DNA from: Halorussus limi
Lineage (GTDB): Archaea; Halobacteriota; Halobacteria; Halobacteriales; Haladaptataceae
Length of the DNA stretch: 64,000 bases
Direction of reading: 5' to 3'
Assembly: GCF_023238205.1 (NCBI RefSeq)
Contig: NZ_CP096659.1
Location: forward strand, 2,249,626 to 2,313,625
A model generated the notes under the pieces. It did not search any database, was not told where the DNA came from, and saw nothing but the letters and a program-made list of their open reading frames with translations. Of this stretch, positions 9,933 through 16,173 are shown one piece after another (the first letter of the stretch is position 1; each line of letters opens with the position of its first letter). A program made the position numbers and the translations under genes.

Positions 9933-10179
9933 GCCTCTACTACGGCCCCAAATCACGTGAAACCCTGTCAATTTCATCAGAGATTGTTGTTTTGAGAAAG
10001 TGAGTGACAGGATATGCGGACGTAATCAACGGGCATCTCGGGAGTGACGGGGACGTACGAATCCCTTCACAACACTGTTATCCGTACGACCCACCCACCT
10101 CACAATGAGAGAGTGAGACCACACAGTCGTGCCGACGGGTCCCGTTGGGACTCCCCCAAAATTTCTGCATCGATGGTCA

Positions 10180-10221
10180 ATACGCACCACGGTTTGCGCG
10201 ATTTAGAGGATGTATGCAGTA
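10180..10221 (+). repeat. Partial copy A of the palindromic repeat family
   Basis: TTAGAGGATGTATGCAGTA (10203-10221) matches the right end of copy C at 12649-12667 with few changes, and ATACGCACC (10180-10188) resembles the left end ATACGCGCC of the full copies. The roughly 45 central bases are missing, so it looks like an internally deleted copy in the same orientation as copy C. The rest of the 332-base gap between the HTH gene and the next ORF shows nothing else. Confidence 0.5.
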
Positions 10222-10264
10222 GACGGCAACAGTTTGTTTCAATCCCTCAGCGGCAAAATAGCCG

Positions 10265-10525
10265 TTAAGTTGGTCTGCGAGGGGGATCGTTTCTCTGATC
10301 CGAGATGATCCTCGTCTCCTCAAACTCACCAGTTCGAACAGCAGTAAGAATGCTCTCAGGGTCGACTCCATCGAGGGCAATCGTTTCACGTTGTGCCCGT
10401 TGAAGCATCTTCGCAGCGTGAAGGTCGATCGGTACACTGCTTCCAGCGGTCATGTCGATATCGAGAATGAGGGAGACCAGCTGCCACGTAGGATGGCGCA
10501 CCGACCATTCTCTCTTGCTTACCAT
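10265..10525 (-). CDS. Small hypothetical protein
   Basis: 86 aa, mixed hydrophobic start (WQLVSLILDIDM) then HAAKMLQRAQRETIALDG and an acidic-basic tail. I do not recognise it. It is divergent from the broken antiporter gene, with start codons only 46 bases apart. Its composition is less biased than that of neighbouring shadow frames, which is the main argument for a real or recently real gene. It could be a remnant. Confidence 0.35.
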   Translation of the reverse strand: MVSKREWSVRHPTWQLVSLILDIDMTAGSSVPIDLHAAKMLQRAQRETIALDGVDPESILTAVRTGEFEETRIISDQRNDPPRRPT

Positions 10526-10571
10526 TCAAGCAGACGGAAATGCTAGGGGTACAGTAGAGAGCAAACAACTC

Positions 10572-11814
10572 ATGGCCGAGACAACCGCTGTTGTATTGGG
10601 AGTGCTCGTCTCCTTCATCATTGCTATCGGTGTCCGGTTTCTGGCAGACCGAGTCACGTTCCCATACACCGTTTTACTTGTCACAGTCGGATTCACATTG
10701 ACGATTTTTCCTCTCCAGACGTATCTCGGCTTCAGCCTCACCCCTCTCTTTACGCACGACGTGATCCTCTTCGTGTTTCTACCCGCGATTCTGTTCTATG
10801 GCGCCGCGGAGATTGATCACGATCTGTTTCGACGCAACCTGCCAATCATTGCAATAACCGTTCTTGTTGGGCTCCCTGTCGCTATTTTAGCAATCGGCTG
10901 GGTCGGCGCGAAGCTCTTCGGAATCCCGCTGTTAATCATGCTACTATTTGGAGCGATGGCCTATCCGATAGATCCCGTTGCCGTCCTCTCGCTCTTTGAG
11001 GAATCAGGAGCTCCATCACGACTGGCGGTTCTTGTCGAGGGGGAGAGCCTTCTCGATGATGGACTTGCTATCGTTTTGTTCTCGGCGGTGTTAGCACTCG
11101 TACGTGATGCTGACCCACGGATCTTACTGGAACGGGGCTCTTCTCGTTTGACCGGTTGGGGGCATTCTTGACCAATTTTCTCATTGTAAGTCTCGGTGGC
11201 ATTCTTGTCGGTGTTGGAATTGGATACGCCACGTACCGAACACAACGGGTAGTGAACGACAAGACGAATCTCTTCATGATTTCGGTCGTTGGGGTCTACG
11301 GGGGCTTTTACCTCGCGGAACACGTGCTCCACGTAAGTGGAATTCTCGCCACGGTAGTCACAGGCATCGTCTTGGGAACATTCTCCAGACAGTATGCACT
11401 GAGTGAGGAGAACCTCGAGTATTTGGGGGAGATTTGGGAGAAAATCGTCTTCCTGTCCGAAACGATGCTGTTCGTTGCCATCGGCATCGAGGTATCGTCA
11501 ATCCAAGTACTCAGGACCCTTCCGGTCGTGCTAACTACGCTTCTTCTTCTGATCGGTGTCCGTGCTGGCGTGATCTACGGAATCGTGAATCTCCTGAATC
11601 AGGTGATCAAGGACCCCATCCCCGTAAGCTATCAGCACGTTATAATTCGGGGTGGAATGCACGGCGTAATACCAATCGCTCTCGCGCTCAGTCTCGGACC
11701 TTCCATTCCCTTCGGAGGTCAGCTCAGTCGGCGGTGTTTGGAGTTGTCATCGCAAGCATGATCATCCAGGGACTGTCGATGACAAGTATTCTCGAAGCGA
11801 CCGGTGTAACCTAA
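10572..11814 (+). pseudogene. Broken NhaP-type Na+/H+ antiporter with two frameshifts
   Basis: Three consecutive frames together encode one CPA1/NhaP-like antiporter. Frame one runs from ATG 10572 to about 11137 and includes GAMAYPIDPVAVLSLFEESG with the conserved Asp-Pro and VEGESLLDDG. Frame two continues as LFSFDRLGAFLTNFLIV to about 11715, covering the second half of the transmembrane core. Frame three reads VFGVVIASMIIQGLSM and stops at 11812-11814. The joined product would be about 410 aa with about 12 membrane segments, the usual size. Two independent shifts suggest a decayed gene, though assembly errors are possible. A full-length homologue lies at 54873. Confidence 0.8.
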
Positions 11815-11987
11815 TCCGGTGAAGAGGACGAATGGACAGGTCTTTCTCTAGCTTTAGCCTCACTCTTTGGGCCCTTTAGTGCCAAGACTGGCGCTGATTC
11901 GAAGGTCACCTCATTGTGGGAAACTAGTGCATATCTCCCCTTTGCGTGCCAATCTGTCTTGAGTTCAGTTGGGACATTTATCGTGTC

Positions 11988-12070
11988 GCATACGCGCCCT
12001 GTATCTCGCACGTCCTGTGATGACCTACCGAAAAGGTGTCAGGAATGGAGTGCGAGATGTTGCGAATCGA
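11988..12070 (-). repeat. Copy B of the palindromic repeat family (inverted orientation)
   Basis: Arms ATCTCGCAC (12003-12011) and GTGCGAGAT (12050-12058) are perfect inverted copies. The end ATACGCGCCCTGT (11990-12002) is the family terminus. On the minus strand the centre (CTGAC...GGTAGGTC) aligns with the plus-strand centres of copies C to F, so this copy is inverted. It lies just past the 3' end of the minus-strand UspA-like gene and fills most of a 305-base gap. Confidence 0.75.
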
Positions 12071-12119
12071 GCCACTAAGTTTTACGGGTCGAAACGTCAC
12101 CGGATCATATTTCAATCGC

Positions 12120-12530
12120 TCAAACGGGGACTAACATGACGGGGATGGCGTGTGTTTTGAGAACCGTTTCTATCATACTGGGATGCAGAAGCTCATCGAC
12201 GAAATTGTGTTCCCTATCACCCATAACGACGTATTCGTAATCGCGGTCGGATTCAAGAATCGCGTCGGTGAGGAGTTTCTCTTCCGCGATGTTCGTTCGA
12301 TCCGAGAATTCACCTCTCCCCTGTATCTTTACCTCGAAAGTGACGTCCGGAGCTGTTCGCTGGATTACCGTCTCGATCTCGTCGCGGATTTGCTCGACAG
12401 ATTCGTCTTCAGATTCCTGAACGTGGTACACGAACAGGTCGTGTCCACTCACTGCTGCCTGTTCAACGGCGAATTCCAAGACGGTGTTTCGGTGCTCAGA
12501 ACCCCCAAACGCTACGAAGATCGTCCCCAT
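12120..12530 (-). CDS. UspA-family universal stress protein with degenerate nucleotide motif
   Basis: 136 aa, one Usp domain: an N-terminal strand (MGTIFVAFGGSEHRNTVLEFA), a helix with AVEQAA, and a C-terminal strand IPVMLVPV. In ATP-binding members the loop before the last helix reads G-x2-G-x9-G-[ST]. Here it reads GDREHNFVDELLHPSMIETVLK, lacking the second Gly and the Gly-Ser, so ATP binding is doubtful. Repeat copies B and C flank the gene at 49 bases on each side. It is divergent from the hydrolase gene. Role in stress tolerance is inferred from the family. Confidence 0.8.
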   Translation of the reverse strand: MGTIFVAFGGSEHRNTVLEFAVEQAAVSGHDLFVYHVQESEDESVEQIRDEIETVIQRTAPDVTFEVKIQGRGEFSDRTNIAEEKLLTDAILESDRDYEYVVMGDREHNFVDELLHPSMIETVLKTHAIPVMLVPV

Positions 12531-12579
12531 ACATTTCCTTAGACGGCTTCTCCCTTTAGCGACGGGGCAACCGTGACCG

Positions 12580-12666
12580 ATATGCGCCCTGTATTCACCA
12601 TGCTAATTCTGACAGTATGTGGGTAAGTCAGTGGCGGTCGTGATGAATACAGAGGGTGTATGCAGT
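12580..12666 (+). repeat. Copy C of the palindromic repeat family
   Basis: GTATTCA (12591-12597) and TGAATAC (12644-12650) pair within longer imperfect arms: CGCCCTGTATTCACCAT on the left and GTGATGAATACAGAGGG on the right. Inner half-sites CTGAC and GTCAG pair as well. It ends in GTGTATGCAGT. It separates the start of the UspA-like gene from the start of the hydrolase gene, so any promoters of these two genes lie in or beside it. Confidence 0.75.
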
Positions 12667-12723
12667 GTGGCGCTTGCGTCTCCTCGGTACGACTATCGTT
12701 GAGCGTAACGTAGCGACACTGCT

Positions 12724-13524
12724 ATGCCAGTCAGCCAGTGTAACGGTGCGAACCTCTATTACGAGGAGGAAGGGGCGGGGCGACCGATCGTCTTCCTCCA
12801 CGGAGCGTGGGCCGGACTTCGATTTTTTGAGCCTCAACTGATGAACCTTTCAGACGAGTTCCAGACTGTGGCGCTTGATTTTCGAGGTCACGGTCGATCG
12901 GAAAAGTCGGAAGCGGGGCACACGGTTCCGCAGTACGCGCGTGACGTCAGAGCCTTCCTCGATCACCAAGACCTCGATGAGATTGTTCTCGTCGGATGGT
13001 CACTCGGGGCACTCGTCGCCTGGGAATACGTCGATCAGTTCGGTACCGATGGTATTCGAGGCCTCGTGAATGTCGATATGGAGGCCGCGCCTGGACCGGC
13101 CGGGAACGAGGAGGCTCCCACCTACGACCTCGATAGATTCCGTGATATCAACCGAAGTATACAGGCAGATCATCTGGCCTTCATCGAGCAAACAATCGAC
13201 GTATCTTTCAAACACCCGCCTACTGACGATCTGCGGACGACGATTCTCGATGAGGACTCGCGGTCACCGCCAACCGTCAAGAGCGCCATTATTATCGACG
13301 CGACGCTGTGCGATTACCGAGAAGTTCTTCCCGATATAGACGTTCCAATGTTGGTGTGTGCTGGCGCGGACGAAAAGTGGCGCTCGGTCCCGGTGGTCAA
13401 GCGGACCGCCGATCTTGTTCCCGAGGCTCGATTCGAACTGTTCGAGGAAAGTGGACACAGTCTCACTGTCGAAGAACCAGAGAAATTCAATCAGGTAGTG
13501 AGCGATTTCGTCAAAAGCCTCTGA
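12724..13524 (+). CDS. Alpha/beta hydrolase
   Basis: 266 aa alpha/beta-hydrolase-fold enzyme. The oxyanion region FLHGAWAG (about 24-31) precedes the nucleophile elbow GWSLGA with Ser93. The acid is probably Asp216 (CAGADEKW) and the base His245 (EESGHSLTVEEPEKF), so the triad is complete. The architecture matches small esterases, haloperoxidase-like hydrolases and related enzymes; the substrate cannot be told. ATG at 12724 lies 58 bases after repeat copy C, and copy D begins 1 base after the TGA. No partner gene for a pathway is visible. Confidence 0.88.
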   Translation: MPVSQCNGANLYYEEEGAGRPIVFLHGAWAGLRFFEPQLMNLSDEFQTVALDFRGHGRSEKSEAGHTVPQYARDVRAFLDHQDLDEIVLVGWSLGALVAWEYVDQFGTDGIRGLVNVDMEAAPGPAGNEEAPTYDLDRFRDINRSIQADHLAFIEQTIDVSFKHPPTDDLRTTILDEDSRSPPTVKSAIIIDATLCDYREVLPDIDVPMLVCAGADEKWRSVPVVKRTADLVPEARFELFEESGHSLTVEEPEKFNQVVSDFVKSL

Positions 13525-13525
13525 T

Positions 13526-13614
13526 GCGTACGCGCTATCTATTCAGCACGGCTTTCCTGACAACTTCTGAGCAGGTCGGTATTGGTGGTGCAAGATATAG
13601 TGGGTGGATTTAGC
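13526..13614 (+). repeat. Copy D of the palindromic repeat family
   Basis: Starts CGTACGCGC right after the hydrolase stop. The left arm TCTATTCAGCAC (13539-13549) and right arm GTGCAAGATATAG (13588-13600) pair imperfectly. The centre CCTGAC...CTGAGCAGGTC matches copy E. The remaining 214 bases before the methyltransferase gene hold TATA-like GTTATAG near 13764 and nothing else evident. Confidence 0.7.
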
Positions 13615-13828
13615 AGAGGTGCAGTTCCAAAGAAGTTCTCCTCGCACCCTCGTGATGGCACGGGAATACAATGGAAATTGATGGCTAACTATTTGCTCTC
13701 TCGTAGCGTATCTAGGACCTGTCTTGCTATGACAATACAGGCAAACCCGGTAGATGGTAATGCAGTTATAGACTTCCGAGGGAGACTTCACAGCCCCGTC
13801 CTCTGGCCTGACAAAGCGGGGAACACCC

Positions 13829-14659
13829 ATGACCGCTGAGGACCTCCGCGAAACGCAGGTCGCATGGGACGAGGTCGCAGCTGGCTTCGACGAGTACGCC
13901 ACACCATTGACTATCTCCTTCGCGGAGATGGCCCTCGACAGAGTCGATGTCGGCTCAGGGACGCGGTTTCTCGACGTGGCCGCCGGCAGCGGAGCACTCA
14001 GCATTCCGGCGGCACGACTCGGCGCGGAGGTAGTGGCGACCGACATCTCTCCCGCGATGGTCGAGTTGCTCACTGCACGCGCACGGGATGAGGAACTGAC
14101 CGATATCGAGGCCCGTGTCATGGATGGCCACGCCCTCGAGTTCGAGGACGACACCTTCGATGTCGCCGCATCCCAGAACGGTGTCTCGCTGTTTCCGGAC
14201 ATGCAGCGCGGGGTGCGCGAGATGGTACGTGTCACGAAACCGGGTGGACAAGTGTTGATTCTCGCGTTTGGTCCGCCGACGGAGGCAGAGTTTCTCACGT
14301 TCTTCATGGGGGCAATGCAAGCGGCCATTCCTGGGTTCGATGGCCTCCCGATGGACCCCCCGCCCTTACCGTTCCAGGCGGCGGATGCCGAGAAGCTGCG
14401 CGCACAACTTGCCGACGCTAGACTGAACGATATCCGCATTGACACCGAGACGTGGGACATGGAGATCCAGTCCGCCGAGCACCTCTGGGACATGGTGGTC
14501 AACAGCAACCCAATCGCCGCAACACTGGTCGCCGACCTGACCGAAGAGCAAATAGCCGAGGTTCAGAGAATCCTGGACACCAAACTCCGTGACCGTTCCG
14601 GAGGGAGCGGGCCCGCCGTCCTGACCAACCGGATGCATATCGCCGTCGGGACGAAGTGA
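13829..14659 (+). CDS. Class I SAM-dependent methyltransferase
   Basis: 276 aa. Motif I is FLDVAAGSGALSIPAA (about 47-62), followed by the acidic end of strand two (VVATDISPAMVELL), motif II DTFDVAASQNGVSLF and motif III VTKPGGQVLILAFG. This is the UbiE/Methyltransf_11 type acting on small molecules. The C-terminal half (EHLWDMVVNSNP) resembles the uncharacterised group often annotated only as methyltransferase domain protein. Substrate unknown. The gene stands alone between repeat copies D and E, facing rightward. Confidence 0.88.
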   Translation: MTAEDLRETQVAWDEVAAGFDEYATPLTISFAEMALDRVDVGSGTRFLDVAAGSGALSIPAARLGAEVVATDISPAMVELLTARARDEELTDIEARVMDGHALEFEDDTFDVAASQNGVSLFPDMQRGVREMVRVTKPGGQVLILAFGPPTEAEFLTFFMGAMQAAIPGFDGLPMDPPPLPFQAADAEKLRAQLADARLNDIRIDTETWDMEIQSAEHLWDMVVNSNPIAATLVADLTEEQIAEVQRILDTKLRDRSGGSGPAVLTNRMHIAVGTK

Positions 14660-14738
14660 AAACGTTGGTCTGTCCGACAGTATCGAGTACATCAACTCAT
14701 TTCACGTGGTCGAGGTCAGTACTGGACACGGCTGAAAG

Positions 14739-14822
14739 ATACGCGCCCTCTCTGTAGCGCATGGCTTCTGACCGTGACTGAGCAGGTCTTTGTGGTCCGT
14801 GCTGAATAGAGAGGGTAGATGG
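14739..14822 (+). repeat. Copy E of the palindromic repeat family
   Basis: GATACGCGCCCTCT begins the element exactly as in copy F. CCCTCTCT (14746-14753) and AGAGAGGG (14808-14815) are perfect inverted copies, and the right arm continues CCGTGCTGAAT. The centre reads TTCTGAC...CTGAGCAGGTC. It lies 79 bases after the methyltransferase stop and 62 bases before the DUF389 frame. Confidence 0.78.
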
Positions 14823-14884
14823 GCGAATAAGAGCATAATATTACGGAAGGAGGTCCATTATTAGACACTCTCGCATAGCCGCAA

Positions 14885-15562
14885 TTGTTTCACCCGACAC
14901 GCCTGTATTTCTTCGAGATGTGTGCCGGAGTCTCACTCAGCGAAAAGTGCGAGAACCTCTACGAACAGGTCGGGCTTGATACGTCGTATCTTGTTTTGAT
15001 GACGATGTCCGGTGTGCTTGCTGGCGTGGCTCTCCTCACCAACTCGATTCCAATCCTCATCGGCGCGATGGTCATTGCCCCAGCATTGACGCCTTTGGAA
15101 CTCGTTTCCGCTGGCCTTGCTGCCAACCGGTTGAAGCGAGCCGGATTCGGGGCCTTGGTCGCGTTCGGCGGTCTTTTGGCTGCGACTGCTGGGGCGATGG
15201 TAACGACGGTGATACTGAACATGACAGGAGTTCTCCCACCTGCGGAGAACCTCATTGAGAAACCACTACTTGAGGAACGCGTTACGGCCGGCTGGTACAG
15301 CGTCCTTGCCGCTGCCGCGGCGGGTATCGCGGCGGGGATAGCGACCGACGAAGAACGGACAGACACGCTAGTCGGCGTCGTCGCTGCCCTCGCACTCGTC
15401 CCGGCCGCAGCTGCTGGGGGAATAACATTGCTGTCACGAGCGCCTGCCAAGGCCAGTGGCGGCCTCCTCTTACTCGTCGTAAATGCAGGCATGGTCGTGA
15501 TAACTGGGACGCTAACACTCTGGCTCCACACTCGTGGCGATAGTAAAGCGCACACAGGCTAA
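14885..15562 (+). CDS. DUF389-family membrane protein
   Basis: 225 aa, or 214 aa if ATG 14918 is used. The hydrophobic core carries the DUF389 signatures NSIPILIGAMVIAPALTPLE (about residues 54-73) and GVVAALALVPAAAA near residue 172, with about six membrane segments. DUF389 proteins are widespread in haloarchaea, sometimes fused to or beside small-molecule binding domains; their function is unknown. It lies between repeat copies E and F and reads rightward like the two genes before it. No other gene is linked to it. Confidence 0.85.
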   Translation: MFHPTRLYFFEMCAGVSLSEKCENLYEQVGLDTSYLVLMTMSGVLAGVALLTNSIPILIGAMVIAPALTPLELVSAGLAANRLKRAGFGALVAFGGLLAATAGAMVTTVILNMTGVLPPAENLIEKPLLEERVTAGWYSVLAAAAAGIAAGIATDEERTDTLVGVVAALALVPAAAAGGITLLSRAPAKASGGLLLLVVNAGMVVITGTLTLWLHTRGDSKAHTG

Positions 15563-15685
15563 TAGGCATGCAACGTACCTATCGCCTGTTTCGATCGTCC
15601 ATGCCGAAACGAACATACTCCTATGCTAAACTCATCTTCTGTATTGAACGATTCCAGTAGCAAGCTTTGGACCATATCTTGCGAG

Positions 15686-15768
15686 ATACGCGCCCTCTAT
15701 TCAGCACGACGCTTTTGGCAGTTGTTCGGTAGGTCAAGTCGATGCGTGCTGAAGACAGAGAATCAAAT
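15686..15768 (+). repeat. Copy F of the palindromic repeat family
   Basis: Starts GATACGCGCCCTCT as in copy E. TTCAGCAC (15700-15707) and GTGCTGAA (15746-15753) are perfect inverted copies. The centre TTTTGGC...GGTAGGTC is the closest relative of inverted copy B. It lies 123 bases after the DUF389 stop. The right end (GACAGAGAATC) is more diverged than in copies C and E. Confidence 0.75.
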
Positions 15769-16173
15769 ATTCGTGGTGCGTATTGACTATCGATTCGGAG
15801 GTGTCGAGGGAGTCCCAACGAGCCCGATTGCTTCCGCATTGATCGGTCTCCCTCCCTCTACGGTAAACTGGGACAGACCGACAGATAACTCTGTTGTGAA
15901 AGAATTCAAGCCAATTCGGCTTTCCGCAGTATTATCCGGAATAAGTGGCGATAATCCGATGTCGGAATACGAGTACCCTCGAAGTTCACCCTATTATCTG
16001 TTGAAAACCGGGTTCCTTTCTAGAAATGGCTATTTCAGTTATTCCTCATCTTTAGCCTCTTCGCAGACCTCGTCGTCGCATTCTCGGCGATACTTACCCA
16101 GTATAATGTTGCGGTCTATCGCCGAACAAAAGCCACCCCATGGTAGCACAACTCGAAACTCGGCGCCACCGCG
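15769..16173. other. Gene-poor spacer after repeat F
   Basis: I see no convincing gene in these 405 bases. A 36-codon minus-strand frame (GTG at 16149, stop 16039) ends RRECDDEVCEEAKDEE, which looks protein-like but is too short and has no start context to call. Base composition is AT-richer than the flanking core genes, as across the whole 10-17.5 kb stretch. Confidence 0.4.

Follow-up and report, generated by a model that had tools for sequence, protein, structure and literature searches.

Integrons are known to capture cassettes by site-specific recombination. In integrons and CALINs, described from bacteria and from archaeal MAGs (PMC9668308), mostly single-gene cassettes stand in tandem with uniform site polarity, each cassette carries one imperfect palindromic site built of two simple sites, the enzyme is a tyrosine recombinase, and many arrays are without one. 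In Haloquadratum, SMR-A/B, PATEs and MITEs of about 80-110 bp have inverted ends and no known mobilising enzyme; for the SMRs, no target duplication is reported, similarity between copies is commonly >95%, and IS605/PATE elements are the targets (PMC3119063). Two further points of comparison are the Int1 invertases of PhiCh1 and phiH, small haloarchaeal tyrosine recombinases of ~225-235 aa that lie inside a phage tail-fibre invertible segment, and mobile insertion cassettes, in which IS ends surround a passenger gene. Among open-access papers, we found no description of a haloarchaeal integron or cassette system.

Here we describe repeats that were noticed in a 64,000-nt stretch of the Halorussus limi genome (hereafter the window) and that form arrays with all of the integron and CALIN features listed above. 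An earlier note on this DNA had compared the window array to an integron. That comparison holds for the architecture (single-gene units, polarity, breaks at sites, and a linked tyrosine recombinase elsewhere), but not for membership: no IntI-type integrase (TIGR02249) exceeded the cut-off in any of the 28 genomes of the taxonomic family, and the attC core (RYYYAAC ... GTTRRRY) was present in none of 136 elements. Furthermore, unlike in integrons, the recombinase belongs to a different, haloarchaeal clade and lies inside a site pair rather than beside attI, the cassette genes lie in either orientation, and the sites lack covariation support for a fold. On the best reading, the cassette arrays are integron-like in their working without being members of the integrons. 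The recombinase is about 43% identical to the Int1 invertases, which have different sites and no cassette arrays, whereas the elements differ from the Haloquadratum SMRs in being diverged, intergenic, polar and array-forming.

Comparison of the sequences makes it likely that these repeats serve a haloarchaeal gene-cassette system as paired sites of site-specific recombination, with arrays shuffled by this recombinase. With moderate confidence, we extend this to active, integron-like gene capture and shuffling in haloarchaea, of independent origin from bacterial integrons, in which a dedicated tyrosine recombinase within its own site pair reorders single genes across families of Halobacteria. 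If true, this would be a second, unrelated cassette solution that is widespread in haloarchaea and bears on their extensive gene exchange, and a case of convergent evolution of gene cassettes.

Paired sites in the window array and across the order

Sequence and alignments bear out the five full repeat copies (B-F) and one deleted copy (A) reported in the earlier note at the same places (Table 1), with the element extending roughly 5-8 bp beyond the described ends on both sides, as far as the outer boxes TGNTNGATA and TATTCAGCA. When 33 Halorussus copies were aligned, a four-box structure emerged. Specifically, a copy comprises two ~27-bp sites, L (TGNTNGATA-CGCGCCCTC-TATTCAGCA) and R (TGCTGAATA-CAGAGGGTG-TATTCAGCA), which are inverted relative to each other and flank a conserved centre of about 40 nt containing CTTCTGACAG...GGTAGGTCG. 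Within each site, 9-bp inverted boxes surround a 9-bp spacer with a CCCTC/GAGGG core, and the inverted-repeat matches of the boxes in the consensus are 7/9 and 9/9. Judged by its sequence, this layout is the plan of a tyrosine-recombinase core site. The common form of the element is 85-95 bp long, with the recombinase absent and the ~40-nt centre left, and most elements score as L-type at one end and as R-type at the opposite end. The left outer site is L-type in all five full window copies; copy B, which had been described as facing left, does so in its reversed centre but not in its site polarity, which is that of C-F. Centres are likewise reversed relative to L and R in most copies outside Halorussus, including those of Haloarculaceae, where the flanking halves are kept.

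Table 1. Elements, cassettes and bounding repeats of the window array (window coordinates)
Feature	Position	Strand	Description	Basis
Inverted repeat, left arm	10059..10191	+	~137 bp, bounds array, ends in T-type half of A	
Element A	10176..10222 (about)	+	outer halves only, interior deleted; left half T-type GGTCAATACGCACCACG, right half R-type AGAGGATGTATGCAG	sequence, alignments
Cassette 1	10268..11980	+	Na+/H+ exchanger gene, PF00999, several broken frames	ORFs, Pfam
Element B	11981..12079	+	left outer site L-type, centre inverted, right end aberrant	
Cassette 2	12120..12530	-	universal stress protein, PF00582	ORFs, Pfam
Element C	12572..12670	+	L site 12574-12600, R site 12641-12667	
Cassette 3	12724..13524	+	alpha/beta hydrolase, PF00561	Pfam
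Element D	13520..13618	+	L site 13522-13548, R site 13589-13615	
Cassette 4	13829..14659	+	SAM methyltransferase, PF08241	Pfam
Element E	14731..14829	+	L site 14733-14759, R site 14800-14826	
Cassette 5	14918..15562	+	DUF389 protein, PF04087, found in six genomic contexts	Pfam
Element F	15678..15776	+	L site 15680-15706, R site 15747-15773	
Inverted repeat, right arm	15772..15907	-	71% identical to left arm	

The exchanger gene in cassette 1, which is split into several reading frames (window 10452-11814), is probably a pseudogene. DNA 67% identical to the hydrolase of cassette 3 adjoins an element in a sister-genus genome (L104).

The earlier note had proposed a covariance-model search. A model of the five window copies recovered independent copies on contig C3 of the same genome (E 1.6e-8 and 5.9e-6), and further copies were found in relatives and order-wide; the arm pattern gave four matches in the window genome and none in the reversed control. 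With the first model, the family was present in 8 of 18 Halorussus genomes, and with the second in 15 of the 28 genomes of the taxonomic family to which Halorussus belongs. Across the order, at least 80 of 243 genomes and at least 41 of 77 genera carry it, both counts being lower bounds with up to 16 candidates scored per genome. A strict pattern applied to 84,980 species genomes returned 61 stretches, of which the 26 counted as haloarchaeal from their record titles share the same total length (59-61 nt). The remainder look like chance or unrelated matches, and three pattern matches in viral contigs, which had only weak model scores, were taken as chance.

Array polarity and the movement of single genes

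Clusters of elements are arrays of mostly single genes. The median element spacing is 909 bp, and the largest array, that of G158, packs 28 elements into 35 kb. By mechanical ORF calls, 37 of 58 intervals hold one ORF, 12 hold none and 9 hold two or three. With scoring matrices for L and R that were derived from Halorussus copies, L-to-R polarity agreed in 110 of the 111 scored pairs of adjacent elements (41/42 in runs with elements <3 kb apart; 69/69 in further large arrays, where 10 more pairs gave no call). The binomial probability of this outcome is 9e-32 on the assumption of independent pairs, which does not hold for pairs within one array. The genes themselves are less constrained. In large arrays, 37 share the strand of the site polarity and 20 are opposite, as is the universal stress protein gene of cassette 2, while the sites keep one polarity; the earlier claim that each gene is followed by an element in the same relative orientation is thus no general rule.

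The chief rival is a MITE-type element, in which L-recombinase-R would be an autonomous tyrosine-recombinase transposon and the 85-bp copies deleted derivatives that insert beside genes without mobilising them as cassettes. Haloquadratum does have short mobile repeats whose ends are inverted and which lack target duplications (PMC3119063). Copies of the present element are abundant and intergenic, and the inverted L/R-type sites frame the recombinase gene as terminal repeats would, so that the short copies and an enzyme-coding element have terminal inverted repeats in common. Yet independent insertions should face either way, whereas polarity was uniform rather than random. The plain form of a MITE family, one of the options in the earlier note, is disfavoured by this 110:1 polarity and by where homology breaks fall, and we regard a MITE-like origin as unlikely.

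Those breaks are concentrated in the elements. Across all loci, 44 of 463 distinct homology endpoints fell inside elements compared to 7.7 expected, the endpoints being partly dependent because related loci were included. In addition, one gene with half-sites on both sides can be found in different neighbourhoods, which is also at odds with MITE-like insertion. For example, the DUF389 gene occurs in the window, H. salinisoli (G013), H. vallis (G017), Halomicrobium urmianum, Haloarcula JP-L23 and Haloarcula GH36. In all six contexts, homology sets in at the AGAGGG core of the R site before the gene. In four it extends to the following L site (...GATACGCGCCCTC), after which the interiors diverge; in the two Haloarcula genomes, the shared sequence stops earlier. 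A zinc-ribbon gene and the gene for a 119-aa membrane protein show similar movement. Units shared from L to L link the window and G013, and units shared from R to R link G013 and G010; since both kinds of junction occur, exchange may be at L, at R or at both. Searches found no excised circle or clean empty site, and none was identified for the window array in relatives, where the near flanks are accessory and too variable.

Alternatively, ordinary homologous recombination between dispersed repeats could shuffle genes with no site-specific enzyme. At ~70% similarity within arrays, the repeats could offer short homologies, and the window array stands in a genome without the clade recombinase. 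However, palindromic repeats should then recombine either way round, producing mixed polarities and frequent L-L and R-R hybrids, and such hybrids are rare. Furthermore, the elements have diverged, yet genes are common to several families, and a dedicated recombinase sits between the sites. We judge this explanation very improbable.

A recombinase clade framed by the sites

A Pfam search for tyrosine recombinases identified a gene for a 234-aa enzyme inside the G013 cluster. Orthologues in four further genomes of other families are 74-82% identical, and members of the clade (~71-89% identical) occur on plasmids of Natrinema, Haloarcula, Salinirubellus, Halorubrum, Halorientalis, Natronococcus and others; outside the clade, the next group is <48% identical. 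The protein contains the expected catalytic motifs (R, K, HxxR and Y). Its gene typically starts about 45-75 nt past an L-type site, and in nearly all copies an R-type site lies 26-34 nt past the stop. The gene occurs in both orientations relative to L and R, and in inverted cases the types are swapped. Sites of L/R type scoring above 8.3, a cut-off set at 95% of background, were present upstream of 11 of 13 recombinase copies, downstream of all 13 and on both sides of 11, with the L versus R call ambiguous for some; among 14 related integrases, none had such a site on either side. This frame was first seen by eye and then scored, so the score is a confirmation on the same loci, although the matrices were trained on elements alone and the controls had already been picked, on their identity to the recombinase, when the frame came to notice. 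Most recombinase loci have other elements within 8 kb, and wherever polarity was readable, the recombinase unit agreed in it with its neighbours (L047, L211, L215, L216, L230, L233 and L236). The recombinase may be one more passenger, framed by sites by chance, but the simplest account is a cassette system whose enzyme gene occupies the place of the short elements' centre.

In a first association test (E<=1e-15), in which plasmid integrases of ~40% identity were mixed in, the recombinase showed no association with elements; the association emerged once the >70% clade was separated from them. Many element-bearing genomes are without the recombinase. In the Halorussus family set, the full gene was found only in G013, along with a fragment in G020. 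The earlier note was right that the window has no integron-type integrase, and the clade itself has no member anywhere in the window genome, where the closest relative is 42% identical and lies on another contig without flanking sites. The window array is thus an orphan, and its six elements are probably static unless the enzyme arrives from elsewhere. A gene for another tyrosine recombinase (L131; G000 C1:2243751-2244302) lies upstream of the window array at a distance of about 16 kb.

It is also conceivable that the system is a DNA inversion switch, in which the recombinase flips its own gene between L and R and alters the expression of neighbouring genes, with the arrays as a side effect. 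The nearest other homologues (<48% identical) include the PhiCh1 and phiH Int1 proteins, annotated in the tail-fibre invertible segment, and both centres and recombinase are found either way round relative to L and R. Nevertheless, most elements have a fixed ~40-nt centre and no recombinase, PhiCh1 has no L/R-like site (best score 2.4), and a switch leaves the recurrent movement of single genes unexplained. This explanation seems highly unlikely.

If the repeats are instead recombination sites of a cassette system, the recombinase would bind the boxes and exchange strands at the core. Recombination between direct-repeat sites of neighbouring elements would excise or insert one gene as a circle, whereas recombination of L with R would invert the interior. 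The enzyme presumably acts on the arrays in this manner, and a small recombinase with defined ~27-bp sites is open to direct testing in Haloferax. Since substitutions fail to keep a hairpin, the symmetry of the elements resembles that of sites where proteins bind double-stranded DNA: 74.4% of pair cells were standard versus 74.2% in shuffles, which offers no support for the folding implied by the palindromes in the earlier note, although some matched arm changes among the five window copies alone mean that a fold is still possible. A structured terminator or RNA, also raised there, is disfavoured by the same lack of covariation above shuffles, which together with the lack of a relevant Rfam match over the window array led us to reject an RNA family.

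Outer ends of arrays and units

At both ends of the window array, T-type halves lie within the 137-bp inverted repeat, for which inspection revealed no matching target duplication. In the plasmid collection, this repeat has one other match, on an H. aquaticus plasmid beside a small HTH-like gene; a larger tyrosine recombinase gene lies about 0.9 kb from that copy. Elsewhere, some single-gene units are located inside inverted repeats, TIR1 (CAGTAGTTGRTAGTACGGTTTC), that adjoin variant sites T and X, and two of them (L060 and L110) have possible 4-bp duplications. Several single-gene units within TIR1, with possible target duplications, may be akin to mobile insertion cassettes. Unlike in those, however, there are internal L/R junctions in the arrays and the recombinase is linked to the sites, and only some units have terminal inverted repeats at their outer ends. 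The TIR1 units and the 137-bp repeat of the window may be larger carriers. A unit with the right end GTGATAGATACACGCTCTG was considered as an insertion sequence and rejected, its ends enclosing different single genes and not a transposase.

At L060 (6048-7835), L110 (4212-5355), L127 (2327-3223) and L130 (2060-2956), TIR1 (CAGTAGTTGRTAGTACGGTTTCTTTATTCAG) bounds units that differ in their single gene, and the TIR1 tip is also found on many Natrinema plasmids. A second conserved end, GAGGGTTTCAACAAGGCC, follows variant elements at L058, L113, L116, L120, L127, L092 and L093. At L020 (4811-5788; G000 C3), a transposase-like gene adjoins an element with a TIR1 end.
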